Below, piece by piece: positions 5,437-34,379 of a stretch of DNA of 34,929 nucleotides (positions are counted from its first letter, which is position 1; each line of letters starts with the position of its first letter). The notes below the pieces were generated by a model that did not search any database, had not been told where the DNA came from, and saw nothing but the letters and a program-made list of their open reading frames with translations. The translations under genes and the position numbers were made by a program. The DNA is from an uncultured Bacteroidota bacterium (lineage in GTDB: Bacteria; Bacteroidota; Bacteroidia; Bacteroidales; UBA12481). Location: contig CAIXKO010000639.1 in the NCBI GenBank assembly GCA_903919925.1, positions 1 through 34,929 on the forward strand. Reading direction: 5' to 3'.

Positions 5437-5958
5437 ATGAAAAACTTAATTATAACAGCAGCGGTGGTAGCTTCCTTCTTCGCTTTGTCATTTGGGAGAG
5501 TTAATGCACAAGCAACAGCAACTGGTCATATTTCAGCCGAAGTTATTGAAGCTTTGACAGTTGGTGAATCCTCTTCCATGAATTTCGGCCGTTTCTCCGC
5601 TGGTGATCAGGGTGGCAGTTTAATTATCCCGGTAAAAGGTGCTGCAGTTTCAACCTCAACTGTAACTACCGCCGACAGCAACATCAACCCGGCAACTTTT
5701 TCAGTATCCGGATCAAAAAATGCCACTTTTTCGGTTACCCTTCCACAAGGACCAACTACTCTTACCAGTATCTCCGGTGAAGGCACCATGATGGTAACCG
5801 ACTGGAACGCATCTTCACTCCAGGGTACCGATGCTTACGTACTCACCGGAGGCACCCAAACCGTTTCAGTAGGAGCAACCCTGAAAGTTGGCACCGCAAA
5901 CGAAAATCCTACAGGAATCTATACCGGTTCATACCAGGTAACTTTCGCCTACAACTAG
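5437..5958 (+). CDS. DUF4402 secreted subunit 1 (candidate fibre subunit)
   Basis: 173 residues. A signal peptide with probable cleavage at Ala24/Gln25 (NAQ) is followed by one DUF4402 beta-sandwich domain: SMNFGRFSAGDQGG (about residues 47-60), a central TFSVSGSKNATFSV hairpin, TMMVTDW, and VSVGATLKVG. The C-terminus reads PTGIYTGSYQVTFAYN, with glycine at -14, alternating Y/Y/V/F and a penultimate tyrosine. That is the signature of chaperone-usher pilins, where it forms the strand bound by the chaperone. Family function is not firmly established; assembly into a surface fibre is my inference from this motif and from the nearby chaperone and usher-like genes. A candidate Shine-Dalgarno (aaaggaag) lies 7 bp before the ATG, which is rare in this phylum and may mean high expression. 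Closest relative here is the gene at 7357. Confidence 0.85.
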   Translation: MKNLIITAAVVASFFALSFGRVNAQATATGHISAEVIEALTVGESSSMNFGRFSAGDQGGSLIIPVKGAAVSTSTVTTADSNINPATFSVSGSKNATFSVTLPQGPTTLTSISGEGTMMVTDWNASSLQGTDAYVLTGGTQTVSVGATLKVGTANENPTGIYTGSYQVTFAYN

Positions 5959-5999
5959 GCATCTTAACTCCTCGGCCTTAAATTTCTGATTGATAGGTA

Positions 6000-6020
6000 A
6001 TTCCATATTGTGGAATTTTT
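6000..6020 (+). terminator. Weak candidate terminator after the first DUF4402 gene
   Basis: A 6-bp stem attcca/tggaat with a 5-nt loop is followed by a short T run, about 40 bp after the stop codon. The stem is short and AT-rich, so this is tentative. Confidence 0.3.
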
Positions 6021-6058
6021 GTGTTGTGGGAATAGATGAAGAGGGAGCCAGGCAAGAG

Positions 6059-6428
6059 CATAGCCGTCAACAATAGGAATTCCGGGATCTGAGATGTACC
6101 CACCCCGCCCTCCCTGAAAAAGGGAGGGAGTCTGCATTGGCGAATCCTTAGTACGCAACTAAGCCGGAATGCCATACAAACAGTTTTACATGCAATAGTT
6201 ATCGTGAAGAAGGTTGCTTGGTTGGCATCCTGTTAATAATCTGATCATTGAAAATGATTGCTTCTCTGTTTTGTCTGAATTTCTATTTCCCTCTCTGAAG
6301 CCGGAAGAGAAATTGTGCTTTTGTTTGGTTGCGCTGAGAGGTAGCAACAAAGCAGACTCCCTCCCTGTTTCAGGGAGGGTCGGGGTGGGTACAACTGAGA
6401 TCCCGGAGCCCTCAGGTTGACGGCTATG
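6059..6428. mobile_element. Repeat element related to the DUF559 element but without an endonuclease gene
   Basis: Nested inverted arms bound this 370-bp block. Outermost are catagccgtcaac (6059-6071) and gttgacggctatg (6416-6428), then ccgggatct and its complement, then about 50 bp that pair imperfectly and hold gtacccaccccg and agggagggagtctgc. Each side contains a GC-rich hairpin: ccctccct/agggaggg at 6108-6128 and ccctccctg/cagggaggg at 6359-6379. The same gtaccc and ccctccct modules occur in the element at 4598-5093. The 6137-6350 interior has no recognisable gene. It resembles a non-autonomous (MITE-like) derivative; a degenerate extra end, ttaagttgagggcttt, lies just outside at 6484. 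Confidence 0.6.
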
Positions 6429-6537
6429 AGGGTAGGTCCCGAGGTTGATCGCGCAAAAGGCATCCTGGCAGAGTAAAAAATCTTTAAGTTGAGGGCTTTA
6501 CCTACCCCTCCAAACAACCTATAAATTCCACTTTCCG

Positions 6538-6582
6538 TTCCAAATTTTGCCCCAAATTTCCATAATGTGGAACGATTTGGAA
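6538..6582 (+). promoter_or_regulatory. Nested hairpins upstream of the second DUF4402 gene
   Basis: An outer stem ttccaaat (6538-6545) / atttggaa (6575-6582) encloses an inner stem ttcca/tggaa (6558-6572). It lies 124 bp before the start codon at 6706 and could be a terminator or leader structure. No clear -7 element was found between it and the gene. Confidence 0.3.
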
Positions 6583-6705
6583 TTGTGCCAAACTCCTAAA
6601 AGTCACAATATGAGCAAATTAACGTCTATATGCCAAAGTGGTATACTTCTTGACTGTAATCCATCAGAAACGAATTAAAAAAACAAATAATTAAAATTTT
6701 AAGTC

Positions 6706-7230
6706 ATGAAAACTTCAATTAAACTCTTCGCCCTCGGAATCGTAATCGCCGGATTCGGTATTAATGCAAACGCTCAGCAGTCTGTAACAGGAACCGGAGC
6801 AACCAATGCTACCATTATTACTCCTCTTACAATTGTAAAAGCAACAGATGCTGACATGAATTTCGGAGTTGTTGCTGTTAGTGCAACCACAGCAGGAACG
6901 GTTATTCTCACACCTGCAAGCGCACGCTCAGTTACTGGTGGAGTTACTCTGCCTTCAGTTACCGGAACAGTTGGTGCTGCAGTATTTAATGTAGCAGGTG
7001 ATGGCAATAGAGTATTTACAATTTCTTTGCCTTCCTCTATTACATTAACTGGATCTGTATCTGGGACTATGACTGTCAACACATTCACTAGCACTCCTTC
7101 AGGAACAGGTACACTTTCGACCGGAACAGCCACTGTAAGAGTAGGTGCAACTTTAGTTGTTGGTGCAGCTCAGGCTCCAGGAGAATACACTAATGCTGCC
7201 GACTTAGCTGTAACGATTAATTATAACTAA
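6706..7230 (+). CDS. DUF4402 secreted subunit 2 (candidate fibre subunit)
   Basis: 174 residues with a signal peptide likely cut at Ala23/Gln24 (NANAQ). The mature chain is Thr/Ser/Ala/Gly-rich and has the DUF4402 pattern: DMNFGVVAV, a VFNVAGDGNRVFTISLP hairpin, GTMTVNTF, VRVGATLVVG, then APGEYTNAADLAVTINYN. The end has a penultimate tyrosine with alternating L/V/I/Y, as in chaperone-usher pilins, but the preceding glycine sits at -16 rather than -14. It has no cysteine. It diverges from subunits 1 and 3 and could be the major subunit, a guess based on its strong terminator and simple composition. The leader is AT-rich (aaaaaacaaataattaaaa) without a Shine-Dalgarno, typical of Bacteroidota. 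Confidence 0.85.
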   Translation: MKTSIKLFALGIVIAGFGINANAQQSVTGTGATNATIITPLTIVKATDADMNFGVVAVSATTAGTVILTPASARSVTGGVTLPSVTGTVGAAVFNVAGDGNRVFTISLPSSITLTGSVSGTMTVNTFTSTPSGTGTLSTGTATVRVGATLVVGAAQAPGEYTNAADLAVTINYN

Positions 7231-7248
7231 TTATCCCTCGGGAACATG

Positions 7249-7276
7249 AAAAGTGCTGCTTTAAGGCAGCGCTTTT
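7249..7276 (+). terminator. Rho-independent terminator after DUF4402 subunit 2
   Basis: The stem aaaagtgctgc (7249-7259) / gcagcgctttt (7266-7276) has one G-T pair, a short loop and a following T-rich stretch, 19 bp past the stop codon. It could limit read-through so that subunit 2 is made in excess over downstream genes. Confidence 0.7.
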
Positions 7277-7356
7277 CGTGTTTATAATTGTTTGTAATTC
7301 TTTAAGGTTTTTTATCTCAGCCCATTTTAGTTTTATTAAGAATTGTTGATCAAAAA

Positions 7357-7881
7357 ATGAAAAAGCTTTTCCTGATATTTGTTTCTATCTCTTTTCTTCT
7401 GGGAGTTCAATGCCAACGGGCGTTATCTCAGGAAAGAGTAAGTGCTTATGCTCAGGTATCAGCATCAGTCATTATTCCGATAGCCGCTACGGAAACATCC
7501 CAGTTGAATTTTGGACGTTTTTACCCGGGCACTTCGGGTGGAACTATTTCCATCAGTCCTGATGGTTATGTTATGACTTCCTCTACAGTTGTGGCAGATG
7601 CCAGTCCGAGGAGTCCGGGAAGTTTTTTGGTTTCTGGTCAGGGGGATGCAACTTATGCGATAGATTTTCAGGAAGGTTCAGCCACACTTATAAATTCTGA
7701 ATCCAAAACAATGGAGGTGAGTGACTGGGTTACCATACCTGAAACCAGTGATAGTTGTATGAAACTTGCTGGAGGTAGCCAAACGGTTATGGTAGGGGCA
7801 ACTCTTAAAGTTGGCTCGTTGGACGAAAATCCCAAGGGAATATATACTGGTTCTTACCAAATCACGTTCGCTTATAATTAG
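7357..7881 (+). CDS. DUF4402 secreted subunit 3 (candidate fibre subunit)
   Basis: 174 residues with a signal peptide probably cut after Ser24 (ALSQ). The DUF4402 landmarks are QLNFGRFYPGTSGG, SFLVSGQGDATYAI, TMEVSDW, VMVGATLKVG, and the terminal PKGIYTGSYQITFAYN with glycine at -14 and penultimate tyrosine. It is clearly a paralogue of the protein at 5437; the last 30 residues differ at only a few positions. It lies after the terminator of subunit 2, so it needs its own promoter. TTTG at 7291-7294 followed 18 bp later by TATCTCAG (7313-7320) is a weak candidate. The chaperone gene follows 129 bp downstream. Being next to the chaperone, it may be a minor or adaptor subunit (inference). Confidence 0.83.
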   Translation: MKKLFLIFVSISFLLGVQCQRALSQERVSAYAQVSASVIIPIAATETSQLNFGRFYPGTSGGTISISPDGYVMTSSTVVADASPRSPGSFLVSGQGDATYAIDFQEGSATLINSESKTMEVSDWVTIPETSDSCMKLAGGSQTVMVGATLKVGSLDENPKGIYTGSYQITFAYN

Positions 7882-8010: not shown

Positions 8011-8856
8011 ATGAAACAAATCGTAACATCTGTTCTTTTGTTTTTTGGGTTGATTCTTTTGCCTGTAATAGCCTCATCAGGTGTCATGGCACAAGGAAAC
8101 CTACTGATCACTCCGCGACGCGTTGTATTTGAAGGGAATAAGAAAACCGAGGAGCTTAATCTTGCTAATACTGGTGCAGATTCGGCAACTTACAATGTTT
8201 CTTTCGTTCAGTACCGGATGAAGGAAGATGGCTCATTTGAAGAGATCAAAGTACCGGACCCTGGCCAGAATTTTGCAGACAAAAATATTCGATTTTTTCC
8301 GAGAACGGTTACTCTGGCACCCAATGAGTCACAGGTTGTGAAAATGCAGGTGTTCCGAACCACTGAACTACCTGCTGGCGAATATCGTTCTCACGTTTAT
8401 TTCAGGGCTTTACCCAAGCAAACTGCTCTTGGGGAAGCTGATGCGCCCAAAGACTCCTCCGCATTATCTGTAAAATTGGTTCCAATATTTGGAATAACCA
8501 TCCCTGTGATTATTCGGACAGGTACTACATCCGCAGAAGTTACTCTTTCAGATCTGTCTTTTCAAGTTCTTAATGATACACTGCCCAGGCTGAATCTGAC
8601 TTTCAACCGGACCGGCAACAAATCGGTTTATGGTGATATTGATGTTAGTCATGTGTCAGTAGCAGGTAAGATAACTCAGGTTGGCTCCATACGTGGGATT
8701 GCAGTTTATACTCCGAACCTGATCCGGCGGGTAAAAATGGATCTTTTGCGGATTCCGGGTGTAGATTTCAAAATCGGAAAGCTTCAAGTGACTTATTCTG
8801 GCGAAGTTGAAGCCAAACAGGTAAAGTATGCAGATACCGAGTTGCTACTCAAGTAG
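8011..8856 (+). CDS. PapD-like periplasmic chaperone
   Basis: 281 residues from the ATG at 8011; the longer start at 7951 would put 20 odd residues before a clean signal peptide (cleavage near Ala27/Gln28, VMAQ). The N-terminal Ig domain (about 29-150) reads like FimC/PapD chaperones: LLITPRRVVFEG with Arg36/Arg37 where PapD has Arg8, RFFPRTVTLAPNESQVVKMQV with Lys111 near PapD Lys112, and PAGEYRSHVYF. The Arg/Lys pair anchors the subunit C-terminus in the known family. The G1 region, LSVKLVPIFGITIPVII, has alternating hydrophobic residues suitable for donor-strand complementation. A second beta domain follows to residue 281. Expected role: fold and cap the DUF4402 subunits in the periplasm before hand-over to the usher-like protein. 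Residue equivalences were made by eye. Confidence 0.82.
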   Translation: MKQIVTSVLLFFGLILLPVIASSGVMAQGNLLITPRRVVFEGNKKTEELNLANTGADSATYNVSFVQYRMKEDGSFEEIKVPDPGQNFADKNIRFFPRTVTLAPNESQVVKMQVFRTTELPAGEYRSHVYFRALPKQTALGEADAPKDSSALSVKLVPIFGITIPVIIRTGTTSAEVTLSDLSFQVLNDTLPRLNLTFNRTGNKSVYGDIDVSHVSVAGKITQVGSIRGIAVYTPNLIRRVKMDLLRIPGVDFKIGKLQVTYSGEVEAKQVKYADTELLLK

Positions 8857-9487: not shown

Positions 9488-12400
9488 ATGTTTTATATTT
9501 CTAAATATGAGTATTATCCGGCACAAGGATCGGCCGAAACTGTGGGAGCTTCCGCATGCAGTATCGGAAATGGCTGTGGAATGGGGTCAAGGGTAAGGTA
9601 TTTTAGCAGGTCAGGAAAATTTCTCCTATTCCTTTTTTTGTCTACATGCCTATTTTTATCAGCAAATAGTTCGTTCGGACAAATTAGCACCTTGAATGGG
9701 TGGACCAATTTGTACCATGGAACCTCTACTGCTGCTCAAAATTTCACCTATACTGTACCTGCCGGGAGCAATTCACGGCGCATTCTGGTGATCGCAATTG
9801 CTTCATCAAGAACTGACGTTGGTGCACGATCAGTAACGCTTACTTATGGTGGACAAACTCTGATACCGGTCAATGGGGATATGGCCCTTGCTACACAGCG
9901 GCACCATACGCAACTTTACTATTTAAATGAGGCGGGGCTGGATGCAGCAACCAATTCTACGCTTGCGGTTACAGTAAGCGGTGCATCCACCCGCGCAACC
10001 GATGTTTTTGCTTCCGTTTACGATAACATTGATCAGAATAATCCGGTTACTGACTCTCGTACATATACCAGTGGAACAAGCAACACCACTAACCCGCTTT
10101 TTTCTCCGGCATTAACCGTAAATGCCAGCGACCTGGCAGTGGAGGTGATCAGTTGTTTTCGCGTTAATAGTACTTCTCTGAGAAACATAACATATGCTGC
10201 CAACTGGAGCATGGTTAATCAGCAAACAACTGCCTCAACAGATGCAGTAAGGAATGCTGTAGCCTACCGAAGTGTACCGGTCACGAATACAACAGATGCT
10301 TCTTCCACAACCTTTAGTGGTAATGCACTCGGATCCATGACGGCTATGAGTCTTAAAGAAGCCCCCAGGTATTTTCTTAGCGCAGCTTCAGGCAACTGGA
10401 ACAGTACTTCAACCTGGCAGGAATCCTATGATAATGCCACCTGGCAGCCAGCAACGGAAGTGCCTACCAACATAAGTTTGCTGACTACTATTCAATCCGG
10501 GCATACGGTAACACTTACCGCAGCTGCTGCAGCTACCGATTTAACGATTGAAGGTGTCCTGGACGTGAGCACCTTTACGTTAACCGGTTCCGGAAACTTA
10601 AACGTTTCCTCAACAGGAGATCTGCTAATAGGAGGAGCCTCTAATTTTCCGGCAGGATTTCCCTCAACCACTTTAAGCTCCGGAAGTACCGTAAACTATG
10701 ACAATGCCGGCAGTCAAAACGTTGCAACTTTCGCCTATAGCAATCTCATCCTTTCCATCAGCGGAGCAAAATCAATATCTACCGGAACTTCCGTTGCCGG
10801 AAATTTGTCCATTAGTGGTGCCACGGCCAGTGTGGGTGCCGGGTTGAATATTGCAGTAGGAAGTCTTACTCTCGGAGGTATAAATCGAATTAACGGAACA
10901 TGGGGATCAACCACTGCAACATCAGCCACCTATCATGATAATACTTATTTTTCTGCAACAACCGGATATTTAACAGTAAGCACGGACACCAGAACTTCAC
11001 CCGATCTGGTTGTTTCAACTGCAAGTCAAAGCATTTGCTCTGGATTTTCAAGCATTACCCTTAGTGGAACAGTAAGTGCAGGCGGACCTCTATATCCAAC
11101 CAATGGGGAAACTGTTGCGGTTACCATTAACGGAATCACACAAAATGCCTCGATTTCAGGAGGTGCCGGCGGGTTTTCCATCAATTATACTACCTCGGCG
11201 ATTCCAGCAAATGGAACTCCTTACACCATTACTTACGCTTATGCCGGCAATACCATTCTAGCAGCGGCAAGCAACACCGGAACAACGTTGACCGTGAATT
11301 CTACTATCGGGAATAATTTTCCTGACTTTGCTTACGGTGCTCATGGAACTATTTGCGGTACAGCCATTGAAAACGGCAATGCCACTTTAACCGCTCCATC
11401 AGGTACCGTGTTTATCAATGTTGGCTTTTCGAGTTACGGCACACCAGGCGGATCTTGCTTGTCGTATACACTGAGCAGTTGCAATTCTTTAACTAGTCAG
11501 TCGGTTACCGAAGGATATTTATTGGGCAACAATACTGCAACCATTCCGGCAACAAATGCTGTTTTTGGAGATCCATGCGTAGGTACACAAAAAAGATTAT
11601 ATGTTCAGGCAACCTATACTGAACCGGTTTGTGCCGGAGTAGCTCCCGGAACCATCACCGGATCATTACCATCGGGAGGCAATGGAGTATACACCTATTT
11701 ATGGGAAAGCAGCACAACCAGTTCCTCAACCGGTTTTTCGGCTGCTGCAGGTACCAATGATTTACAGGATTATACGCCAGGAGTATTATCGCAATCTACC
11801 TGGTATAGAAGAACGGTATATTCCGGAGGATGCGCAAATTCCATATCGCCAGTTATTTTGATTAAGATAACACCAGTCATTGCTGGAAACGCAGTTAGTT
11901 CAGCCCAGACCATTTGTACCGGATCATCCCCGGCTGCTTTATCCGGAACTATACCAACGGGTGGCAGTGGTACATTTGTTTATCTTTGGGAAAGCAGCAC
12001 CACAAGCGCAGCTACCGGTTTTTCTGCAGCTACAGGTACAAACAATACTCAGAATTATTCGCCTGCAGCGTTGACTCAGACCACCTGGTACCGTAGAACA
12101 GTGACCTCGGGAGGCTGTTCCAGCACTTCCACGGCCATTCAGGTAACCGTAAATGTGGCATCGGTTGGCGGAACGGTAGCATCGGCTCAAACAATTTGCT
12201 CAGGCACATCACCAGCTGATCTTACTTTGAGTGGAAACACCGGATCGGTGGTTCGTTGGGAGAAATCCACAAATGCAGCTTTTACCGCTCTAACCATCAT
12301 TGCCGGAACGACTACCACATTGTCCAGCGCGACCATTGGGAGCCTCACGGCAAATACTTATTTCAGGGCAGTGGTTCAGGGCGGAACTTGTGCGGAAGCA

Positions 12401-27400: not shown

Positions 27401-30250
27401 CAACAAGTTACTTTAACCGGGACCGGGGCTTATACAGGTGGTACATACACAGTTTCGCCAGTTGGTTTGACTATCAATGCCTTAACGGGCGATATTTTAC
27501 CAGCCAGCAGTACGGCTGGAGCGTATACCGTTACCTATACGGTTCCTGCATCAGGCGGTTGCGATCCCGTAGGGGTAACCCTTGTGGTTACCCTAACTGC
27601 CTTACCCGTTGGAACTTTCACCTACACAAATTCTCCTTATTGCGCTAACTCTGTCAATCCACTTCCCACATTCTCCGGTGGTGGGGTTGCCGGGGTTTTC
27701 TCATCAACCTCGGGTCTTATTTTTGTCAGCAATACAACTGGAGAAGTAAATCTATCGGCTAGCACACCAGGTACGTATATGGTCACCAATACTATTGCTG
27801 CTGCAGGTGGATGCGCCCAGGTTACAGAAACTGCCAGCATCACCATCACTGAATTACCAACTGCCGTGATCAGTTACCCTGACGAAGCATACTGTAAATC
27901 TGTCGTTACCGCTCAATCAATCAGTCTAAGCGGTACTGCGGCATACACAGGTGGTGTTTTTTCAGCAGCTCCGGCAGGGTTATCCATTAATGCGGTTACC
28001 GGTGCAATAACTCCGGGTTCAAGCAGTGCAGGTACCTACACGGTTTCTTACGCTATACCTTCAGCAGGCGGGTGTACCCCTGAGGCGGTAACCACCTCAG
28101 TTACCATAACGGCGATACCTTATGCGGAGATTTTTTACACCGGATCGCCATTCTGCTGGTGGCTTACCGATCCGCAAATTGTTACTTTCACAGGCACCAG
28201 CGGTGGTACCTATACTGCCTCGCCAGCAGGATTATCCATCAATCCAACTTCAGGAGCTATAATACCAAACGCCAGTACTACCGGAACTTATACGGTTACC
28301 TACACGGTTGCACCGGCCGGTGGTTGTGATTTATTCTCTACCACTACATCAGTAACCATTATTGACGATTTGGTATGGACCGGAAATATGAGCACCGATT
28401 GGAATGTTCCGGCCAACTGGTCGTGCCTGGTGGTACCCGATATAAATACCAACGTAAGGATACCGCTTTTGGCTAATCAACCGGTTTTAAGTAATGGAAC
28501 AGGTTTTATTCCGGTTACGGGAGCTGCAAAAAATATTGTGCTCGAAAATGGATCCTCCTTAACGGTAACTGGAAATACTATTCAAATTGGTGGGACCATC
28601 AGCAACAGCGGAACTTTTACTGCCACAGAGGGAACGGTGGAAATGAAAGGAAACTCAGCTCAAATCATTGGTGCAGATGTTTTTGCTACCAACACGATTA
28701 TGAATCTCACAATCAATAATTCCAATAGTGTTGTATTGGAGGGAACACTCAATATCACCGGGATTTTAAATGCAGCCATTGGAAATCTGGCGGCGGGTGA
28801 CTTTTTAACTTTGATTTCTACGGCTACACAAACAGCTTTGATCGATGGAACCGGAACGGGCGAAGTTCTTGGAAATGTTACCATGCAGCGATACCTTCCA
28901 TCCACTTTTGGGTACAAATATTTCAGTTCCCCATTCAGGGCCGCTACTGTTAATGAATTTGGCGATGATATGAATTTAAGTGCAGTGTTTCCAACTTTTT
29001 ACCGGTATAATGAAAACCATTTTACTCCGGCGGGAGTCGAGATGTCGGGTTGGACTACCTACACTGATCCGGGCGGGTTACTGAACCCGTTAGAGGGATA
29101 CGCTGTGAACTTTGGACCTCTTTCCACACCGAAAACTGCCGACATAACGGGTACGGTCACCAATGGGCAGGTTCAGGTTGAACTTTTGAACCATAAACGA
29201 CTTTACACCAAGGGATTTAATTTGGTTGGAAACCCATATCCTTCACCGATCGATTGGAACAACGAAGGCTGGACCAAGAATAACATTGACAACGCACTTT
29301 ATTTTTTCAATGCCAGTAACCCCACCGGAGATCCGTTGGCAAATGATTCCATACAATATCAGGGTGTTTACAGCAGTTATGTTAATGGAGCAGCAACAGG
29401 AAACGGATCCAATATCATTGCTTCGATGCAAGGATTTTTCGTACATGTAACAGAAGGTCCGGGCACGGTTACCGGAACACTGGGAACGACCAATCCGGTT
29501 AGAACCAACGATTTAAATCCGCAATTCAAGAAAACTTATATTGATCACCGGGAGATCCTTAGGTTTACTGCAAATTTTGAAACGACCAATGCAATGGAGG
29601 ACATGGCGGTGGTTTACTTTGACCGCAACGCCAAGCCTGCATTTGATTCTGACATGGATGCATTGAAATTAACGAATACTGACCCAATGGTTCCCAACCT
29701 GTATTCGTTTTCACTCGAATCCAGGCAGCTTTCGATTAATGGATTACCCATACTTACCGATAGTATAACCGAGATACCGCTAGGATTAAATTTACTCAAC
29801 ACCGGGTGGGTTACCTTTAAAGCAAAAGACATTTCACAGTTACCTTTTAACCTGCACCTCTATCTTTTGGATGGCGATCTGGGAATTATCCAGGATTTGC
29901 AACGCAACCCCGAGTATCGTTTTAATTTGAAAAACGGAGAATACAATGAACGGTTTTCATTGGTTTTTTCACTATCCGAAATAACAGATCCTGCAGCAGT
30001 TACTGAAAACCTCTTTAAGGTATTACGCTCTGGTAATCTGTTAATCGCCAGGGTAACACTTCCTTACAGCACACGAGGCACACTTATGGTAACCAACATG
30101 GCAGGCCAGGTAGTACTTCGCAAGGAGGTTTTAGGCTCCGAAATGGTTGAAATAAATCCAAATTCGTCAGCAGGAATTTATATTGTAACTTTGGTCTCTG
30201 GTAAGAGAGCCCAATCAGAGAAACTTTTAATGCGATTAGATTATGAATAG
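9488..30250 (+). CDS. Giant multidomain surface adhesin (6920 aa) with T9SS C-terminal sorting domain
   Basis: One uninterrupted 20.8-kb ORF. A hydrophobic signal (FLLFLFLSTCLFLSANSSFGQ) lies at about residues 44-65 after an unusually long leader; an ATG at 9581 (Met32) would give a normal signal peptide. Order of parts: N-terminal beta domain (about 66-300); a WNSTSTWQES/G8-like segment (to about 500); Ig-like domains; A/B array (891-2348); ten C repeats (2349-3327); Calx-beta domain (about 3426-3540, ending TATITDDD); choice-of-anchor-L-type domain (about 3546-3850, YVFASEEYAEYVGAASNDAF); PKD and SprB-like repeats; a jelly-roll-like segment; thirteen D repeats (5101-6290); then typical T9SS-cargo C-terminal regions. 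The last about 80 residues (LMVTNMAGQVVLRKEV, GIYIVTLVSG, SEKLLM) form a type A T9SS sorting domain. Expected role: cell-surface adhesion or gliding, after export by T9SS. It overlaps the next gene by 8 nt. Confidence 0.92.
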   Translation: MFYISKYEYYPAQGSAETVGASACSIGNGCGMGSRVRYFSRSGKFLLFLFLSTCLFLSANSSFGQISTLNGWTNLYHGTSTAAQNFTYTVPAGSNSRRILVIAIASSRTDVGARSVTLTYGGQTLIPVNGDMALATQRHHTQLYYLNEAGLDAATNSTLAVTVSGASTRATDVFASVYDNIDQNNPVTDSRTYTSGTSNTTNPLFSPALTVNASDLAVEVISCFRVNSTSLRNITYAANWSMVNQQTTASTDAVRNAVAYRSVPVTNTTDASSTTFSGNALGSMTAMSLKEAPRYFLSAASGNWNSTSTWQESYDNATWQPATEVPTNISLLTTIQSGHTVTLTAAAAATDLTIEGVLDVSTFTLTGSGNLNVSSTGDLLIGGASNFPAGFPSTTLSSGSTVNYDNAGSQNVATFAYSNLILSISGAKSISTGTSVAGNLSISGATASVGAGLNIAVGSLTLGGINRINGTWGSTTATSATYHDNTYFSATTGYLTVSTDTRTSPDLVVSTASQSICSGFSSITLSGTVSAGGPLYPTNGETVAVTINGITQNASISGGAGGFSINYTTSAIPANGTPYTITYAYAGNTILAAASNTGTTLTVNSTIGNNFPDFAYGAHGTICGTAIENGNATLTAPSGTVFINVGFSSYGTPGGSCLSYTLSSCNSLTSQSVTEGYLLGNNTATIPATNAVFGDPCVGTQKRLYVQATYTEPVCAGVAPGTITGSLPSGGNGVYTYLWESSTTSSSTGFSAAAGTNDLQDYTPGVLSQSTWYRRTVYSGGCANSISPVILIKITPVIAGNAVSSAQTICTGSSPAALSGTIPTGGSGTFVYLWESSTTSAATGFSAATGTNNTQNYSPAALTQTTWYRRTVTSGGCSSTSTAIQVTVNVASVGGTVASAQTICSGTSPADLTLSGNTGSVVRWEKSTNAAFTALTIIAGTTTTLSSATIGSLTANTYFRAVVQGGTCAEANSASALITVKPTPTATISGTATVCQNAASPNITFTNPQTLPVTVTYNINGANQTTINVGASTTANLAGLTTTTGTFVYNLVSVVYQSAPTCSNSITGSATVTVAATVGTPVFASGATSTRCQGAGTLTYTATAANSTSVTYALDATSIAGGNSIVAGTGVVTYAAGWSGTSVITASAAGCNGPTTASHTVTVTPTVGTPSFTLGATSSRCKGAGTVTYTATATNNTGLTYSLDATSVTGGNSIAAGTGVVTYAAGWSGTSTITVSAAGCGGPKTATHAVTISPTSVGGTLASAQTICSGTSPSDLTLSGNTGSVVRWEKATDVAFASPTTIAGTTTTLSSATIGTLSANTYFRAVVQSGTCAEAGSSTVLITVRPTPTATISGTTTVCQNATSPNITFTNPQTLPVTVTYNINGANQTTINVGAGTTATLAAPTTTAGTFVYNLVSVVYQTAPTCSSSITGSATVTVTATVGTPVFTLGSTSSRCKGAGTVTYTATAANNTSLTYSLDATSVTGGNSIVAGTGVVTYAAGWSGTSTITVSAAGCGGPVTASHTVTINPTSVGGAIASAQTICSGSSPADLILSGNTGSVVRWEKSTDAAFPTPTTISGTTTTLSGATIGSLSANTYFRAIVKSGTCAEAGSATVLITVRPTPTATISGTTAVCQNATSPNITFTNPQTLPVTVTYNINGANQTTINVGASTAATLAAPTTTAGTFVYNLLSVVYQTAPTCSSSITGSATVSVSATVGTPVFASGATSTRCQGAGSVTYAATASGSTGITYSLDATSIAGGNSIVAGTGVVTYVAGWSGTSIITVSAAGCNGPTTSTHTVTITPTVGTPVFTLGSTSTRCQGAGTVTYTATANNSTSLNYSLDASSTAGGNSIAFSTGVITYVAGWSGTSIITVSAAGCNGPKTATHTVTITPTVGTPVFSSGATSTRCQGAGTVTYTATATNNSGLMYSLDATSTTGGNSIVSGTGAVTFVAGWSGTSIITVSAAGCSGPKTATHTVTINPASVGGTLASAQSICAATSPADLTLTGNTGSVLHWQKSSDLSFTTPTDIPGTTTTLLGATIGSLAANTYFRAVVQSGVCPEAYSSTVLITVKPAPTATISGTTTVCQNTTSPNITFTNPQTLPVTVTYNINGANQTTINVGASTSATLAIPTTTAGTYIYNLVSVAYQTAPACSNTITGSATITVSATVGTPTVITISAGSEPTCQPTNGTTTTTYATTASSSTGFNWTLSNGSAGSIGATTGVMTWALGFSGSVNIQVTANGCNGPSSQVVRTVTINPTVGSPSTPTPSATTICQGSSNTTYTTTATNATSYSWTVSGTGNTISGTGTTGTVTWSPAFSGTATVSVTANGCNGPSAAASTTVTVSATSVSPTLGSSSPVAGSVICSGYNSGSATFTGGSGSGANEYQYSIDGGLNWATYTNSATITTTGGVTSVQVRARRSGGVCAAAAYNTFTIWTYGVAPVSPTLNSASPIGGTTICAGFNTGIVTGTGGSGGSTGATNEYQVSINGGSTYGAYTSGAAVITTGATGSIIVQARRNGGSYGCSSTAWTTINTWNLSSATVNPSLNVATPANGTSFCAGFSPSATITAGSGGSTGSVDTYQYSIDNGSNWLVYVSGTAIATAGATGNVLIRASRSAGSYGCSATGPATIVTWPVSQTPVAPTLGSAVPADGSVICPAFNTGTVTGSAGSGGSGTAADEYQVSIDGGTTFSSYTSGASITTTGATGSVIVQARRTGGSVCANTSWSTICTWVVSSPTIIPALDVATPASGTAICAGFSVSATITAGSGGSAGAADLYEYSINNGVAWLAYTSGASINTATATGNVLIRVSRSAGSYGCSSTGPSIIATWPVSSATVNPVLLAATPANGISICPGYSVSATITPGSGGSAGAADYYDYSIDNGASWFVYVSGSAINTTTATGNVLIRTSRSAGSSGCSATGPAVIVNWPVSSATVSPTLGSANPANGSVICTGFNTGSVNGTGGTGGSTGAANEYQVSINGGGAFSAYTSGAAINTAGASGSVIVQARRTGGSYGCTSTSWATICAWTIGTTPLAPSLGSASPGNGSSICAGFNTGTVTGTGGSGGSSGAANEYQVSIGGAYTAYVSGTAINTFGATGNVIVQARRTGGSYGCSSTAWVTICTWSVSSATVNPILNVATPASGSTICEGYSTSATITAGSGGSIGAADTYEYSINSGVTWFTYTSGSSINTTGATGNVMIRASRSGGSYGCSGSGPATIATWPVASAAVAPTLGSASPASGSTICAGSNTGTVTATGGSGGSSGSANEYQFSINNGASYNSYVNGAAISTTGATGSVIVQARRTGGSYGCSSTSWTTLCTWTVNPQPTITLGSNPVLNRGTTIANLLYSATTSSPNQYSIDYNATANTAGFIDVANAALTASPIVLVVPAAPALATYNAILTVRNSTTGCVSINYPITVTVGQNILTASLLNSSQKSVKETGTMVVTVQLSAVSASQVTVPFTINGGSTATGGGTDYAVTASPLTIAAGSTTAGIVITITSEALDENDETVIVNLGTPTNAILGPIITHTATITDDDPYPTGSIAVNRAGISTDATSLVNGVLLKGCVTASNVVFRGNAAQIGHFLKGSSAFPLSEGVLLSTGNVANAEGPNKDFGTTTQYAGAGDANINTITGGTSYDAAVLEFDFVPAGNILQFNYVFASEEYAEYVGAASNDAFAFLLSGPGITGTVNIALIPSTSTPVSINTVHGQGNTLGTTFPAELLNLMPYPTNFGQPWTRVTDDAIGAFGTAPSRYYYRITPTNNNTYPPLNASYYVDNGQFYDRNLFATSGRKQLEYVNGNGVSDMEFDGRTTVLTASHSVTACQTYHIKMVVADVSDQKWDSGVFLEAKSFSSNEILISSHIGAIIGEADNMFEGCDGSFIRFQRTTGADNSQPFTFPILISGTAVNGVDYVYTDQAENIIGDGKFPATGTVAAGSNYVDYYYKALSDGLIEGNETIIFKVNNSCLCSPTPSYLEKMVTIVDVPQIQTSSVSVIKCSTSGYPVATITVNLDGGLDPTEYLYSLDGGTFQASNQFTIPSAVADGSDIFGTSHTVTVKDFYSCNSVTENNIIIPDISPFAAEAGSNIEMCAGQTGVQLNASGGIYYSWTSDTGLVYLSNPSIANPAVRSDIPVGTYIFTVTAQDQEGLAPTCSGTDNMTLTVKPRPALTVTSNSYSVCNGMPIQLTATETNGVAISSWFWNPETNLSSPTISNPVYTPVVSSYLAQSFSVTATATNGCTVSGYSAVVEAFPAPVITTGAIVNAGCGLSNGSATVSATSPGTLPPPTFTYLWNTSPAKTTASATGLAAGTYTVTVTDATHGCSSSKSVTVGTLADVTPPTTGCKIPFTVYLDGTGNAAITVSQINNPAVTADNCTATGNLVMSLSKSTFNASNLGANTVTLSVMDASGNVGTCTTVVTVAYPTTCIITGSRTIYKESFDAGSVNGGYSISAGSAYNINSSAMRVTKNTTVDNFFISRFINVLSYTHLNISVSTPATQTGLNSSDYIQFWYSVDGGANYVQFANNGRMTGTTTGTACSNIPNAESVRIKILSYQNGNSEWRDFDDVHLTGDPALQIAATLTHVTCYGQSNGQIVASATGGASSSYQYKLNAVPYTAYQVSGTFTGLSAGTYIITSKDANNVENTKEVIITQPANPANSAGLAVSDASVCNPSAGNVVFTITNALSGVNYELKTLADVSLSPAVTGTGSGTNLALTILQANLPTSTTTYKVVASTASGCQTTDLTDRPTLNITPKPAGSASQSFCSTNSHKISDLSVTGTGIIWYNASTGGSVLAPATNLVNGLTYYASQTIGGCESATRLAVTASVTLPPTILSVTHGAICGSGTVTLQATASAGVINWYSGQTGGASIGTGTSFTTPNISSTTSYWVESTNNGCATSPRSQVIANVYALPTISLGANPAVCIGAGSAGLTYSATTGGANQYSINFDATAEAAGFIDLAFRTLPVSPIAVVVPGTATVGTYKATLMVKNSLNSCASTPDSITFTINPTTAITSQSMGAQETCIGQSFSPISVSAVGVGLTYQWYSDVSGSTSGGTSLGSANGAQTATYTPQATQAGTLFYYCTVIGTCGSAISSISGAFVVNAIPTATISYLGSPFCKSVSVPQSVSLSGTGAYSGGIYSSTTGLTINPSNGEIAPATSIAGVYTVTYTIPASGGCSEETATTSVTITQVPVATFNYSPEPYCSNASNPLPVFTGGGTAGTFSSATGLIFVSTSTGEVNLSASTPGTYTVINTIAPSGGCDEVSATATITITALPTAAISYIGTPFCKSSEPVSVTLNGTAGGVYSSTAGLTIDSGTGAITPASSTGGTYTVTYTIAAAAGCQSVTATTSVIITAIPVGGFSYTGTPYCINGTNPSPTFVQGGVAGTFSSTAGLVFVSNLTGQVNLSASTPGSYTVTNTIAGNGGCGVVTATSSITISAIPAATISYSGAPFCKNILIPQQVTRTGTAGGTYSALPAGLTIDLNTGAIVPSTSTAGTYTVTYTMLAGGCAPVLSTTSVTINSELTAGISGGTTPVCYNSSPGTLTATGSGGTGSYTYLWYKDGITTGVTTQTYSPGNLIQTSVFYCAITSGSCGTVNTPTSTITVTEVPTGTISYAGSPFCIDLSAEQPVTLSGTGAYTGGTYSSSAGLSINTVTGAITPNLSTAGSYTVTYIIPASGGCSNVPVTTSVTITLVPSVTLTYAGSPFCMSDNSSQPVTLTNGIGAYTGGTYSSTEGLSINAATGEIIPGSSIAGTYTVSYSIPESGGCGGVVVTTSVTITAVPTVAISYSGAPFCKSQVTPQAVTLSGTGAYEGGTYTASPSGLSINSGSGDITPVTSTPGSYTVTYTTPASGGCSAVVATLEVAITPIPTATISYSGTPFCKSVNTPQAATLSGTGAYEGGTYTAMPAGLSINSSTGDITPGTSEPGTYTVTYTIPASGGCSSVTTTSTVIITAVPTASIVYGGSPFCNTLVTPQQVTLTGTGAYTGGTYTVSPVGLTINALTGDILPASSTAGAYTVTYTVPASGGCDPVGVTLVVTLTALPVGTFTYTNSPYCANSVNPLPTFSGGGVAGVFSSTSGLIFVSNTTGEVNLSASTPGTYMVTNTIAAAGGCAQVTETASITITELPTAVISYPDEAYCKSVVTAQSISLSGTAAYTGGVFSAAPAGLSINAVTGAITPGSSSAGTYTVSYAIPSAGGCTPEAVTTSVTITAIPYAEIFYTGSPFCWWLTDPQIVTFTGTSGGTYTASPAGLSINPTSGAIIPNASTTGTYTVTYTVAPAGGCDLFSTTTSVTIIDDLVWTGNMSTDWNVPANWSCLVVPDINTNVRIPLLANQPVLSNGTGFIPVTGAAKNIVLENGSSLTVTGNTIQIGGTISNSGTFTATEGTVEMKGNSAQIIGADVFATNTIMNLTINNSNSVVLEGTLNITGILNAAIGNLAAGDFLTLISTATQTALIDGTGTGEVLGNVTMQRYLPSTFGYKYFSSPFRAATVNEFGDDMNLSAVFPTFYRYNENHFTPAGVEMSGWTTYTDPGGLLNPLEGYAVNFGPLSTPKTADITGTVTNGQVQVELLNHKRLYTKGFNLVGNPYPSPIDWNNEGWTKNNIDNALYFFNASNPTGDPLANDSIQYQGVYSSYVNGAATGNGSNIIASMQGFFVHVTEGPGTVTGTLGTTNPVRTNDLNPQFKKTYIDHREILRFTANFETTNAMEDMAVVYFDRNAKPAFDSDMDALKLTNTDPMVPNLYSFSLESRQLSINGLPILTDSITEIPLGLNLLNTGWVTFKAKDISQLPFNLHLYLLDGDLGIIQDLQRNPEYRFNLKNGEYNERFSLVFSLSEITDPAAVTENLFKVLRSGNLLIARVTLPYSTRGTLMVTNMAGQVVLRKEVLGSEMVEINPNSSAGIYIVTLVSGKRAQSEKLLMRLDYE
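12161..16531 (+). repeat. A/B module array inside the giant adhesin
   Basis: Module A (558 bp, 186 aa, begins SVGGTxASAQTICSG) starts at 12161, 13253, 14078 and 15437. Module B (267 bp, 89 aa, begins VGTPxFxxGxTSxRC) follows A two, one and three times respectively; the fourth A is followed by two diverged B-like modules to about 16531. The start-to-start spacings (1092, 825 and 1359 bp) equal 558 plus 2, 1 and 3 times 267 exactly. The copies are very similar in sequence, which points to recent duplication or ongoing recombination. Confidence 0.9.
16534..19468 (+). repeat. Ten tandem C repeats of about 97 aa in the giant adhesin
   Basis: Approximate starts are 16534, 16818, 17108, 17407, 17698, 17995, 18289, 18589, 18876 and 19171. 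Two subtypes are seen. One has PTLGSASP, NEYQVSINGG and VIVQARRTGGSYGC; the other has NVATPA or similar, SATITAGSGGS, YEYSINNG and NVLIRASRSAGSYGC. Each repeat carries a cysteine early (TICAGF) and one late (YGCS), a likely intradomain disulphide. Confidence 0.85.
24791..28368 (+). repeat. Thirteen D repeats of about 85 aa in the giant adhesin
   Basis: The consensus begins PTATISYxGSPFCKS, has GAYxGGTYSS and GLSINxxTGxITP in the middle, and ends GTYTVTYTIPASGGC followed by a TTSVTIT strand. One unrelated Ig-like domain (TAGISGGTTPVCYN) interrupts the array near 26050. Two conserved cysteines per repeat suggest a disulphide. A minority type (PxGxFxYTxxPYCxN) appears at about 25050, 25547 and 27605. 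Confidence 0.85.
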
Positions 30251-30758
30251 ATCTAAACATCCATTCTTGTTTAGGATGCTTTATTTGTCATTCCTGGTAA
30301 TGTTATTTGCTTTTGTCTTCGATGTATCGGTTCAGGCCCAGCAAAAGCCACCCAAACCGATTACCGTTACCGTAGCCAAAATGTATAATCTGGATTTTGG
30401 ATCTTTTTGTGCAGGTAACGGGATAGGGACCAATGTGATCGTAGATGCTTACGGCAATCGCACAAAAACGGGTAATATCATTCTTTTGGGTAGTTTTTCT
30501 TCCGCTGCGCTTTTCATTATTACTGCAATCCCCGGAACGTTTATCAGTATTTTAGACTTGGGTGATACCATCTTAACAGGTCCGGGTGGAGCAACTCTGA
30601 CTTTACGGATGGGAGATTCCTATCCTCCTTCTCCTTTTATTGCAACCGGAGATTACACCCCTGTTTCGATCGGTGGCCGGCTGATGGTTCCTTCAGCTCA
30701 AGCAACGCCGGGAGGTGTTTATAATGGTGATTTGAATGTGATTTTTATTCAGGAATAA
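30243..30758 (+). CDS. DUF4402 secreted subunit 4 (candidate specialised subunit)
   Basis: 171 residues. The ATG overlaps the last codons of the giant gene by 8 nt, implying translational coupling. The signal peptide is likely cut at Ala32/Gln33 (VQAQ). DUF4402 landmarks: NLDFGSFCAG, ALFIITAIPGTFISI, TLTLRMGD, VSIGGRLMV, then GGVYNGDLNVIFIQE. Glycine is kept at -14 and hydrophobics alternate, but the end is IFIQE: the penultimate tyrosine of the other three subunits is absent. In the mature chain it also has a Cys in NLDFGSFC. Its placement between giant adhesin and usher-like gene, away from the other subunits, suggests a distinct job such as tip, base or link to the giant (inference). The next gene starts 39 bp downstream. 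Confidence 0.8.
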   Translation: MNRSKHPFLFRMLYLSFLVMLFAFVFDVSVQAQQKPPKPITVTVAKMYNLDFGSFCAGNGIGTNVIVDAYGNRTKTGNIILLGSFSSAALFIITAIPGTFISILDLGDTILTGPGGATLTLRMGDSYPPSPFIATGDYTPVSIGGRLMVPSAQATPGGVYNGDLNVIFIQE

Positions 30759-30797
30759 GTAACATCCTTATTGAAAAATCTAGATGGAGATTATTCA

Positions 30798-33700
30798 ATG
30801 AAAGTTTGGCGATATGCATGGTGCGTTTCGCTATTCATTTTGTTTTCCTTTTTCAAACTTGAAGCTCAAAACGAACCGGAATACGAGGAAATCTCTGTAT
30901 TTTTAATGGTTCAACGGGTAGGTGGATTCGACATTCCTGCCGTTTACTCTTACTCAAATCAGCAGGTTTACCTACCGGTCCAGGATATTTTTAATTTTCT
31001 GAAAATCAAGAATACTCCATCTCCAACTTTAGATTCTGTGTATGGCTTTTTTATCAATCCGGAAAATAAATATGTGGTCGATAAATTGCATGATCGGATT
31101 GTATTTGCAAATAAAGTATATGCCATTAAATCCGTTGATATTATTCGGACAGAGACCAACCTTTATCTCCGGTCAAACTTTTTTGGAGAGGTTTTCGGAT
31201 TGGATTGTGTATACAATTTCCGAAACCAAATGGTGACACTTAATACTAAAATCGACCTGCCTGTAATTCGCGACATGCGATTGGAATTTGTTAGAAAGAA
31301 CTTATCCGGAATGAAAGGTGAAGCAAAGGCGGACACAACTATCGGTCGCTCCAATCCACTATTTCATTTTGGAGCAGCCGACTGGTCTGTTATGTCTAAC
31401 CAGGAAATTGTGGTAAATAACCTGAACAATAAGGATACTATTGAAGTGAACAAGCAGAGCAGGTTAAATTTTGGATTAGGAGGAATCATTGCTGGCGGTG
31501 AAGCAAAGGTTGTACTCCAATACTATACAGGACAGCCATTTGTTGAAAAGCAGCAGCAATATCTCTGGAGGCTTGTGAATAATGATCGCAAGATTTTCCG
31601 CCAAATAAATATCGGGAAAATTCCCACTCAATCAACCTCTACTTTGCTAAATCCGGTTTTGGGTGTTCAGTTTACCAATGCACCAACCACTTATCGCAGG
31701 TCATTTGGTTCATATACTTTGAGCGATTATACTGAGCCTGACTGGGCTGTGGAATTGTATGTAAACAATGTACTGGTGGATTTTAAAAAAGCTGATGCCT
31801 CAGGGTTTTTCACTTTCGAAGTACCATTAATGTATGGAATAACCATTGTTTTACTCAGGTTTTATGGCCCTTATGGTGAGGAACGGTCCAAACAGCAAAA
31901 TATAAATATCCCATACAGTTTCCTGCCGGCAAAAGAATTTCAGTATGCTGTTAGTGCAGGAATGGTACAGGATACTATAAATAGTTTGTTTTCAAGGGCC
32001 ACTGTTAATTATGGTATTAACAGGTTTGTTGCAGTTGGTGGCGGGTTGGAATATCTCTCAACTGTGGCATCGGGCTCTTTTATGCCCTTTGTTAATACTT
32101 CCGTAAGATTAGGTTCAAATTTATTGTTTTCGGGAGAGTATACTTACGGCGTCAAGGGCAAGGGTATATTGAATTTCCGTACAGCTAAAAATTTTCAGGT
32201 AGAGCTAAATTATACTCGTTTTGATCCAAATCAAACGGCTATTAAATATAGCTTTCTTGAAGAACGAAGAGCAACCTTTTCATTTCCGATTAAGACGCGC
32301 AGATTTACAGCCTTTTCACGTTTTGCTTTAACGCAGAACATTATGGTTTCATCACAATTTTCTACTGCTGAATGGTTGCTTTCCGGTGCTTTGTTTGGTG
32401 TAAGTACCAATTTCACAACCTATGCCATGCTGGCTGATATCTCCCGCCCCTATTTATATAGTAATCTGGCTTTAGGATTCAGATTGCCAGGGAAATTTCT
32501 TATACGACCGCAGGCACAGTTTGAGTATTCAACAAACCGATTGGTTTTAATTAAGGTGGAATTGGAAAAACAGTTTATGAAGCTTGGATTTCTTAACTTT
32601 TCGTATGAGAATAATTTCAAAAGTAGTTTGCAAAATATTCAATTCGGCTGCCGGTTTGACCTGGGCATCGCCCAAACAGCCTTAACCTATCGCAGAAGCA
32701 ATAATATTAACATGTTAATTGAATCGGCTAGCGGTAGCCTGTTGGTTGATCGTAAAACAAAATTTGCCGGTTTATCAAATAGAACAAGTATTGGGAAAGG
32801 AGGAATTGTTGTCATGCCTTTTATTGATAACAATGGAAATGGCAGGTTTGATAAGGGAGAGCCGAAAGTGTCAGGTCTTCAAATTAATATTAACGGAGGA
32901 AGGGTGGAATACAATAAACGGGATTCGGTGATCCGGATTTTCGAATTAGAGCCCTATATGAGTTATTTGATAGAGCTTAACAAGTTTAGCTTCGATAACA
33001 TTGCCTGGCAAATGCGATTGAAGAATGTAAGTGTTATGGTGGATCCTGACCAATTTAAATTAGTGGAAGTTCCCATAACAGTGATGGGCGAAGCTGCTGG
33101 TACAGTTACCTTTCGTTCATCCGTTGGTGAAAAAGGGTTGGGCAGAGTTACAATTTGCTTTTACAAGACTACCGGAGCCTATTTTGCCAAAACCCTAAGT
33201 GAAACCGATGGCTATTACAGTTTCATGGGCCTGCCTTCGGGTTCGTATTTTGCACGGATTGACCCGGAACAGATGAGAAAACTGAACATGACTGCCACTC
33301 CGGATAGCATTCCTTTTAGCATGCGGGGTGGAAGCGAGGGTGATTATAAGGATGGACTAGATTTTGTCATTAAATCAAATATTGAAGAGATACCACAGGA
33401 GCAAAAAGCTATTTCAATAAAGGATCAGGCAGCGGAGCTCAAAAAGGAGCAGGTAGTGGTACAAAAGAAGGAGCCCGAGCCTGTACCCAGTAAGGAATCA
33501 CTCATGATTGGTGAACCAAAAATCCAGAATCCAAAAGCTGCAGGGAAGGCAGGAGAAACCTTATCGGCCAAAGAAAAGGTTACCGTGTTTGCTATTCAGG
33601 TGGCGGCATCCAAAGTATTTTATGAGCCGGAGTTCTACCGTAACAAGTTCAAAATTGCTGATTCAGTGTGGTACATTGAAAAGGATGGATGGTTCAAGTA

Positions 33701-34379
33701 TTTTACGGGCAAATATGCCACCTCGCGACAAGCCAGTGCTGATTTAACCAAATTGAAGATTAATGGATTTGTTGCTTCAGTACTCATTAGTAAGGAAGAC
33801 GTGAAGAAGACGGGAGAGGACGTAAAGAAGACGGGAGAGGACGTAAAGAAGATGGGAGAGGACGTGAAGAAGATGAGTGAGATCGTGAAGACGGTGGACG
33901 TGAAGAAAACGGAAGAGAAGAAGGATACGGTGATGCCGGCGCCACAAAAGAAAGATACTGTGTTAACACAAAAGAAAGATACCGTTTTTCCAGCTAAGAA
34001 AGATACTGAGATACCCGTTAAGAAGGATACTGTGTTGCCAGTGAAGAAAGGCACCGAGATGCTAGTGAAGAAAGATACCGTATTACCAGTAAAAAAGGAT
34101 ACCGTATTGCCTGTAAAACCTGATGTTCCGCCAGCTGTGAAAGAAGTTGTCATGGTTTACACTATCCAGATTGCAGCCGACAAAACCCTTATTGATCCCG
34201 CCTTCTTCAAGAAAAACCTCAAACTTACCGGCGATGTCCTCTACTTCCAAAAGGACGGCTGGTATAAGTTCGTCACCGGCCAGTATGCCACCAAACTAGA
34301 AGCCCAATCCATGTTAAAGCAACTAAAAATCAGCGGCTTCGTAACCTCCGTCGACAAATCCCAGCTCAAACTCCGCTAA
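30798..34379 (+). CDS. Usher-like outer-membrane protein with two C-terminal SPOR domains
   Basis: 1193 residues from the ATG at 30798 (ggaga 8 bp upstream; a TTG at 30771 is in frame but lies before the signal). Signal peptide cut at Ala23/Gln24. Residues about 27-150 resemble an usher N-terminal domain (YEEISVFLMVQRVGGFDIP, VYLPVQDIFNFLKI). About 150-670 is rich in alternating beta-strands as in a 24-strand barrel. Residues about 297-392 carry the usher signature: RRSFGSYTLSDYTEPDWAVE, ELYVNNVLVD, GFFTFEVPL, NIPYSFLPAKEFQYAVSAGM. Then come two beta domains (about 673-760, FIDNNGNGRFDKGEP, SdrD-B-like; about 761-850, TDGYYSFMGLPSGSYFARI) where ushers have periplasmic C-terminal domains. A Lys-rich linker leads to SPOR 1 (about 927-998) and, after tandem repeats, SPOR 2 (about 1117-1193). 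SPOR domains bind denuded peptidoglycan. Divergence from known ushers is large, so the fold needs modelling. Confidence 0.72.
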   Translation: MKVWRYAWCVSLFILFSFFKLEAQNEPEYEEISVFLMVQRVGGFDIPAVYSYSNQQVYLPVQDIFNFLKIKNTPSPTLDSVYGFFINPENKYVVDKLHDRIVFANKVYAIKSVDIIRTETNLYLRSNFFGEVFGLDCVYNFRNQMVTLNTKIDLPVIRDMRLEFVRKNLSGMKGEAKADTTIGRSNPLFHFGAADWSVMSNQEIVVNNLNNKDTIEVNKQSRLNFGLGGIIAGGEAKVVLQYYTGQPFVEKQQQYLWRLVNNDRKIFRQINIGKIPTQSTSTLLNPVLGVQFTNAPTTYRRSFGSYTLSDYTEPDWAVELYVNNVLVDFKKADASGFFTFEVPLMYGITIVLLRFYGPYGEERSKQQNINIPYSFLPAKEFQYAVSAGMVQDTINSLFSRATVNYGINRFVAVGGGLEYLSTVASGSFMPFVNTSVRLGSNLLFSGEYTYGVKGKGILNFRTAKNFQVELNYTRFDPNQTAIKYSFLEERRATFSFPIKTRRFTAFSRFALTQNIMVSSQFSTAEWLLSGALFGVSTNFTTYAMLADISRPYLYSNLALGFRLPGKFLIRPQAQFEYSTNRLVLIKVELEKQFMKLGFLNFSYENNFKSSLQNIQFGCRFDLGIAQTALTYRRSNNINMLIESASGSLLVDRKTKFAGLSNRTSIGKGGIVVMPFIDNNGNGRFDKGEPKVSGLQININGGRVEYNKRDSVIRIFELEPYMSYLIELNKFSFDNIAWQMRLKNVSVMVDPDQFKLVEVPITVMGEAAGTVTFRSSVGEKGLGRVTICFYKTTGAYFAKTLSETDGYYSFMGLPSGSYFARIDPEQMRKLNMTATPDSIPFSMRGGSEGDYKDGLDFVIKSNIEEIPQEQKAISIKDQAAELKKEQVVVQKKEPEPVPSKESLMIGEPKIQNPKAAGKAGETLSAKEKVTVFAIQVAASKVFYEPEFYRNKFKIADSVWYIEKDGWFKYFTGKYATSRQASADLTKLKINGFVASVLISKEDVKKTGEDVKKTGEDVKKMGEDVKKMSEIVKTVDVKKTEEKKDTVMPAPQKKDTVLTQKKDTVFPAKKDTEIPVKKDTVLPVKKGTEMLVKKDTVLPVKKDTVLPVKPDVPPAVKEVVMVYTIQIAADKTLIDPAFFKKNLKLTGDVLYFQKDGWYKFVTGQYATKLEAQSMLKQLKISGFVTSVDKSQLKLR
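33795..33878 (+). repeat. Four 21-bp tandem repeats (EDVKKTG/M) in the usher-like gene
   Basis: Copies at 33795-33815, 33816-33836, 33837-33857 and 33858-33878 encode the 7-residue unit EDVKKTG or EDVKKMG/S in frame. The unit length is a multiple of 3, so gain or loss of copies would keep the frame. It lies directly after the first SPOR domain. Confidence 0.9.
33918..34120 (+). repeat. Eight KKDTVLPV-type repeats between the two SPOR domains
   Basis: About 24-bp units encode KKDTVMPAPQ, KKDTVLTQ, KKDTVFPA, KKDTEIPV, KKDTVLPV, KKGTEMLV and two more KKDTVLPV. Lys/Pro/Thr-rich, probably extended and positively charged, as in periplasmic spacers that cross or bind the cell wall. Confidence 0.9.

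Follow-up and report, generated by a model that had tools for sequence, protein, structure and literature searches.

The window analysed here, 34,929 nucleotides long, is the whole contig C639 of an uncultured Bacteroidota bacterium, whose assembly amounts to 7.0 Mb in 916 contigs. On its plus strand lie three genes for DUF4402 proteins (5437..5958, 6706..7230 and 7357..7881; Pfam PF14352 with E 9e-23 and 81.7 bits, E 1e-28 and 100.6 bits, and E 4e-25 and 89.5 bits, respectively), followed by a gene for a putative PapD-like periplasmic chaperone (8011..8856), whose reading frame is open from 7951 and has the conserved start MKQIVTS at 8011. A giant gene of 20.8 kb (9488..30250), coding for a surface protein of 6920 amino acids, comes next, then a fourth DUF4402 gene (30243..30758; Pfam E 2e-14, 54.7 bits), and finally the gene for a protein of 1193 amino acids (30798..34379), read below as an outer-membrane usher. 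The frame of the latter (30771-34379) opens with TTG, and the ATG at 30798 gives the length of 1193 residues. A preliminary description had placed these seven genes on a single strand with nothing unrelated between them, and the reading frames are as it claimed: the intergenic gaps hold short open reading frames only and no credible additional gene. The frequency of the Bacteroidota-type promoter pattern was not above chance, and none was found upstream of the operon.

Two further elements were noted at this end of the cluster. Intergenic repeats at 4643-4704, 5036-5093, 6081-6162 and 6325-6407 flank the first DUF4402 gene; their inverted arms of 30-60 nt surround CCCACCCC..CCTCCCT, and their appearance suggests a dispersed palindromic element. 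A GH106 (alpha-L-rhamnosidase-like) gene, at 1320-3572, is situated just upstream of the cluster.

The 1193-aa protein was modelled with AlphaFold2 as an 864-residue stretch lacking the signal peptide and the SPOR tail (73 sequences, mean pLDDT 84.5). When this model was compared with the PDB by Foldseek, FimD and PapC chains took all of the first 18 places (E 3e-25 to 1e-12), the next match having E 6e-9. VIA-align scored FimD at Z 21.1 over 536 residues and the PapC pore at Z 20.8 over 387 residues (4.1 A), the best unrelated, non-usher barrel reaching 15.8; identification as a TonB receptor or a porin was set aside on this difference. In DSSP order, the model consists of six barrel strands, a beta insert at about residues 277-350 and 18 more strands, 24 in total, with the last strand ending at residue 628, which is also the end of the PapC pore alignment. 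The insert, in which pLDDT is 56-70, lies between strands 6 and 7, at the position of the usher plug, and carries the conserved motif VELYINNVLVDY..ADASG.Y.F.VPLVYG; its assignment as a plug rests on the model, because hhalign is collinear outside this region but misaligns the plug itself. Ordered domains were predicted at 1-130 and 679-837. The two C-terminal domains align with FimD at 6.8 A, and the N-domain was aligned only in a loose full-length superposition (3rfz, rmsd 20 A), being weaker in this respect than the C-terminal ones. The structural case for an usher is strong, and the usher-like nature that the preliminary description had proposed for this protein was borne out by the model.

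Structures of chaperone-usher systems were reached by fold comparison only, and not by PDB sequence searches. The window protein was not recognised as an usher by Pfam (where SdrD_B and two SPOR domains were found), NCBIfam or PDB sequence searches; Pfam Usher (PF00577) gave no match to it, and none above the cut-off in 22 genomes, two distant family members touching this model below the cut-off (best E 7e-4). PDB profile searches with the usher alignment and with the chaperone alignment returned no significant chaperone-usher structure, single-protein PDB sequence searches of the cluster proteins returned no such structure either, and NCBIfam gave nothing useful on the six small proteins of the cluster. 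In agreement with the fold, comparison by hhalign of the usher family with six Escherichia coli K-12 ushers yielded E 2.3e-6 over 452 columns. The missed Pfam Usher match reflects a limit of the sequence model and not a biological feature.

A peculiar property of this usher family is its C-terminal tail. SPOR-like repeats follow the C-terminal domains in 60 of 81 ushers, usually one to three of them, and were confirmed by Pfam in the window usher, in the usher of locus L063 and in Pseudoalteromonas; in Pseudoalteromonas xiamenensis a separate SPOR gene is located after the usher gene. SPOR domains bind peptidoglycan stripped of its side chains, so that the usher may be fixed to the cell wall through its tail. 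The extreme case is the 1853-aa usher of L138, with eight SPOR repeats. At the other end of the protein, the N-terminal domain of the 1328-aa L060 usher is tandemly repeated, in three extra copies ahead of the barrel.

The Pfam model PapD_N matched the window chaperone weakly, with E of about 0.004-0.005, below the cut-off. It was matched by 18 of 28 chaperone orthologues (best E 2.6e-5), that of Polaromonas being above the cut-off, and hhalign of the chaperone family with seven E. coli K-12 chaperones gave 91.5% and E 8.5e-7. The orthologues and hhalign support the PapD-like chaperone of the preliminary description. An arginine of the first strand, invariant in 28 chaperones, was aligned by eye with PapD Arg8. 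As other conserved features, the G1 strand FGITIPVIIR has an alternating pattern, a GEYR motif is nearly invariant, and Arg200 and Tyr233 are invariant. The GEYR arginine, Arg200 and Tyr233 could correspond to the anchor residues of CsuC, Arg89, Arg174 and Tyr196 (PMC4654587). Overall, the case from sequence for a remotely PapD-like chaperone of the two-domain Ig type is moderate.

A representative of the putative subunits, the second DUF4402 protein, was modelled with AlphaFold2 at pLDDT 91.8, with residues 1-18 in no strand. Chaperone-usher pilins or pilin domains make up 35 of the 50 VIA-align rows for this model, at Z 5-7, with Z 7.1 for PapG, 6.5 for FimG and 6.2 for CsuA/B, every match being under Z 8. 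In Foldseek the Csu pilus took rank 1 with E 0.04, all E values being above 0.001. Such scores fall under the range that proves kinship and may reflect no more than an Ig-like arrangement in common. The case for a chaperone-usher-pilin-like fold is thus suggestive, and it is strengthened by genetic linkage; the proposal that DUF4402 proteins are the subunits agrees with a model that is most like chaperone-usher pilins, though at Z below 8. In Pfam, the four putative subunits match only DUF4402, and neither spore-coat-U nor WxL.

The termini of these proteins, all of which are single-domain and without an attached lectin, divide them into two classes. In the relatives, class A genes mostly precede the chaperone gene; the stretch ahead of the FG motif has a median length of 25 residues, and 40 of the 45 proteins close with an aromatic residue and Asn. 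Class B is encoded beside the usher; here the median length ahead of the FG motif is 19 residues, a PPxP motif is usually present at the start, and the protein mostly closes with QE or QQ. In the window, the first protein (class A2) has the N-terminal extension QATATGHISAEVIEAL and the C-terminus GSYQVTFAYN; the second (class A1, a candidate major subunit) has an N-terminal extension of alternating small residues and the C-terminus VTINYN; and the third was assigned to class A2 from its termini. The fourth, placed in class B like the usher-adjacent proteins of the relatives, begins with QQKPPKPITV, without a donor-strand-like extension, and ends with IFIQE. Read most simply, these termini mean that a donor strand is present in class A and missing from class B. 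A subunit without a donor extension could only come first in a fibre, at its tip, and the class B protein beside the usher looks like such a tip subunit.

A separate observation concerns two orphan copies of the first DUF4402 gene in the same genome, at C487:3798-4319 (L067) and C710:5424-5984 (L068). They share 91-92% identity with it along 730-912 bp, a stretch that takes in some 200 bp of upstream sequence, and their flanks are otherwise different. They might be copies of a pilin gene able to recombine, or assembly variants.

The arrangement of the cluster is not confined to this contig. Matches to the usher core were obtained in 30 of the 198 genomes of the order, and 345 stretches of the GTDB collection, scanned with the closer usher set since the 27-sequence usher alignment was too diverse, encode relatives; among the 80 matches listed, nearly all bear Bacteroidota names and none bears a name from outside the phylum. 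The order DUF4402, chaperone, optional large gene, DUF4402, usher is repeated in about 30 loci, and the same order is found in the GTDB loci, within the limits set by contig ends and a 10-kb flank; the two sets share a few loci, and the order is seen in about 100 related loci overall. In 72 of the 80 GTDB loci listed of the 345, the gene immediately before the usher encodes DUF4402. Among 296 sampled Bacteroidota genomes, 60 have the usher, which is present in 38 of the 39 chaperone-bearing and in all 32 DUF4402-bearing genomes (Fisher p of 4e-31 and 1e-26, respectively, values that overstate independence, the genomes being mutually related). The arrangement is far above chance, and DUF4402, chaperone and usher are linked across Bacteroidota, as the system proposed at the outset would have them. 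Of the outcomes that the preliminary description named as refuting it, a model lacking the plug or the 24-strand barrel and a lack of conserved co-occurrence, neither was seen. Against the chaperone-usher reading stand, besides the missing Pfam Usher and PDB profile matches, the low scores of the DUF4402 model and the low confidence of the plug region, some loci that have no chaperone beside the usher; the chaperone was found elsewhere in the genome in eight of ten cases tested and nowhere in two. In a sub-group (L084, L096, L097, L102, L109, L110, L114 and L142), DUF4402 and usher genes are together and the chaperone is at a separate locus; these pairs are often near a conserved divergent reading frame of about 985 aa.

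The chaperone was also detected on seven proteobacterial plasmids, five of which have an usher match with E<=0.01, clustered with DUF4402 genes. The hosts of this trio are Polaromonas, Sphingopyxis, Novosphingobium and Pseudoalteromonas. The plasmid ushers are annotated as carboxypeptidase-regulatory-like, SdrD-like or hypothetical proteins, their role being unrecognised. Cultured carriers of the usher, i.e. Chitinophaga, Niastella, Pedobacter and Daejeonella, make the system directly testable.

Considering the usher fold, the remote homology of the chaperone, the conserved gene set, the T9SS signal described below and the SPOR tails, all of which were computed, we regard it as highly probable that the locus encodes a divergent chaperone-usher secretion system, building a surface fibre from DUF4402 pilins. 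How it would act, from donor-strand exchange and the role of the tip to fibre formation, adhesion and function, we infer as follows. The DUF4402 pilins would reach the periplasm by Sec, where each would be capped by the PapD-like chaperone, which would donate its G1 strand FGITIPVIIR and hold the C-terminus of the pilin in its cleft. The usher would then put the N-terminal extension of the following pilin in place of the chaperone strand and thread the fibre through the plugged 24-strand pore. The class B protein, having no extension, would be placed at the tip, and class A pilins would form the shaft. The SPOR repeats on the periplasmic tail of the usher would tether it to peptidoglycan, and the giant protein, leaving by the type IX system instead of the usher, would act alongside as an adhesin.

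The product need not be a rod pilus. The DUF4402 proteins exported by an usher-type pore might cover the surface as a coat or form thin filaments, in the manner of the capsule-like chaperone-usher systems of the Caf1 kind; the single-domain, lectin-free build of the DUF4402 proteins suits this form, and the class A extensions would permit polymerisation in it as well. Nothing specific speaks against it, the computed data separating neither thin fibre, coat nor rod, and we give it a real, if minor, share of the probability.

A separate problem is the giant protein, which the preliminary description had taken for an adhesin belonging to the usher-built fibre. Besides Ig-like and Calx-beta domains, Pfam finds in it a SUEL (rhamnose/galactose-binding) lectin domain, at residues 642-708. 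Its C-terminus holds a type A sorting domain of the type IX secretion system (T9SS; 30053..30229, plus strand, found in both the protein and the genome search), scoring 30.5 bits with TIGR04183 against a cut-off of 23, and such a domain is above the cut-off in five of six homologous neighbours tested. The genome also encodes SprA of the T9SS, in two contig fragments, and 149 type A sorting domains. Since the protein has this sorting domain, and the genome SprA and so many domains of the same kind, its export by the type IX route is the likelier one, and the giant protein is probably a type IX cargo rather than an usher subunit. Large reading frames hold the same position in many relatives, and several otherwise complete GTDB loci are without any; being missing from a number of loci, the large gene would be an optional partner. 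The stop of the large gene and the start of the class B gene, which overlap in the window, have 4 or 8 bases in common in 35 of 49 loci, which suggests that the two are translationally coupled.

The two routes might even meet in a single organelle, in which the proline-rich DUF4402 protein at the tip of the usher fibre holds the giant adhesin exported by the T9SS, the usher being anchored to peptidoglycan by its SPOR tail; this is a speculative and rather unlikely arrangement, which, if true, would be the first appendage assembled jointly by an usher and the T9SS. Less likely still is the original view that the giant protein is itself the tip adhesin or a subunit of the usher-built fibre, its T9SS-like C-terminus being merely an Ig-like domain. 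The place of its gene inside the operon, the overlap with the class B gene in most loci and the similarly placed large frames of many relatives agree with this view, whereas the TIGR04183 scores of the protein and its neighbours, the T9SS equipment of the genome, the absence of any Pfam DUF4402 match in the giant protein and the complete loci devoid of a large frame argue against it, and we consider it improbable.

The least probable reading, a WxL-like display in which the chaperone is a WxLIP-like partner, DUF4402 its wall- or membrane-bound counterpart and the barrel a plain anchor, draws on a better match of the chaperone profile to Enterococcus faecium WxLIP structures (E 2e-4) than to PapD, and was set aside, as the barrel is specifically usher-like, with a plug and C-terminal domains, DUF4402 is not recognised as WxL by Pfam, and WxL systems come from monoderms and, to our knowledge, have no usher. 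The DUF4402 model also matches a WxLIP structure, weakly (Z 5.1), and a deep link between WxL and chaperone-usher systems is possible.

The cluster, read as a chaperone-usher system, is a new and divergent branch of this pathway and belongs to a large, unannotated family widespread in Bacteroidota. Proteobacteria, Spirochaetes, Cyanobacteria and Deinococcus-Thermus are named as usher carriers in published surveys, and Bacteroidota are not (PMC4827864, PMC4654587). In the open-access literature, subscription journals being outside the scope of the search, we found no usher system in Bacteroidota and no paper naming DUF4402. With 60 of 296 sampled genomes, about a fifth, carrying it, such a divergent usher family in Bacteroidota would assign a function to DUF4402, and ushers in this phylum would alter the view of where the chaperone-usher pathway arose and spread. 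The question is also raised of how ushers work alongside the type IX system.

Among known systems, type V (FimA/Mfa1) pili are alike in being surface pili of Bacteroidota made of beta-sandwich pilins. Their pilins are lipoproteins, polymerised after protease cleavage, and we know of no usher in their assembly. In contrast, the locus described here has an usher and a chaperone, and none of its four DUF4402 proteins has a Pfam match to the FimA/Mfa1 family; this identity was set aside.

With classical chaperone-usher pili (type 1 Fim, P Pap), the system would share the usher architecture (an N-domain, a plugged 24-strand barrel and a pair of C-terminal domains), a PapD-like chaperone with an arginine aligned to PapD Arg8, and pilins with a penultimate aromatic residue. 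It differs in having no Pfam Usher or pilin-family match, no lysine at the PapD Lys112 position of the chaperone (as read from the alignment), an usher with a SPOR tail, a single-domain DUF4402 protein as tip candidate, and a giant protein in the operon that is probably exported by the T9SS. Archaic (sigma) systems such as Csu are resembled by the DUF4402 model, with CsuA/B as noted above, and possibly by the chaperone, through the residues that may be equivalent to the CsuC anchor. Archaic subunits, however, are of the spore-coat-U family and not DUF4402, archaic chaperones lack the Arg8-type residue (PMC4654587), which is retained here according to the alignment by eye, and their published host range does not take in Bacteroidota. 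The two marks of the archaic clade, spore-coat-U subunits and a lost Arg8-type anchor, are thus both absent from the window system.

The proteobacterial plasmid clusters, on which we found no studies in the open-access literature, have no T9SS giant protein, and their ushers are merely 20-28% identical to ours over parts of their length. They have the same gene trio in the same order, with chaperones 28-38% identical, and in the Pseudoalteromonas cluster SPOR is likewise found on or beside the usher.
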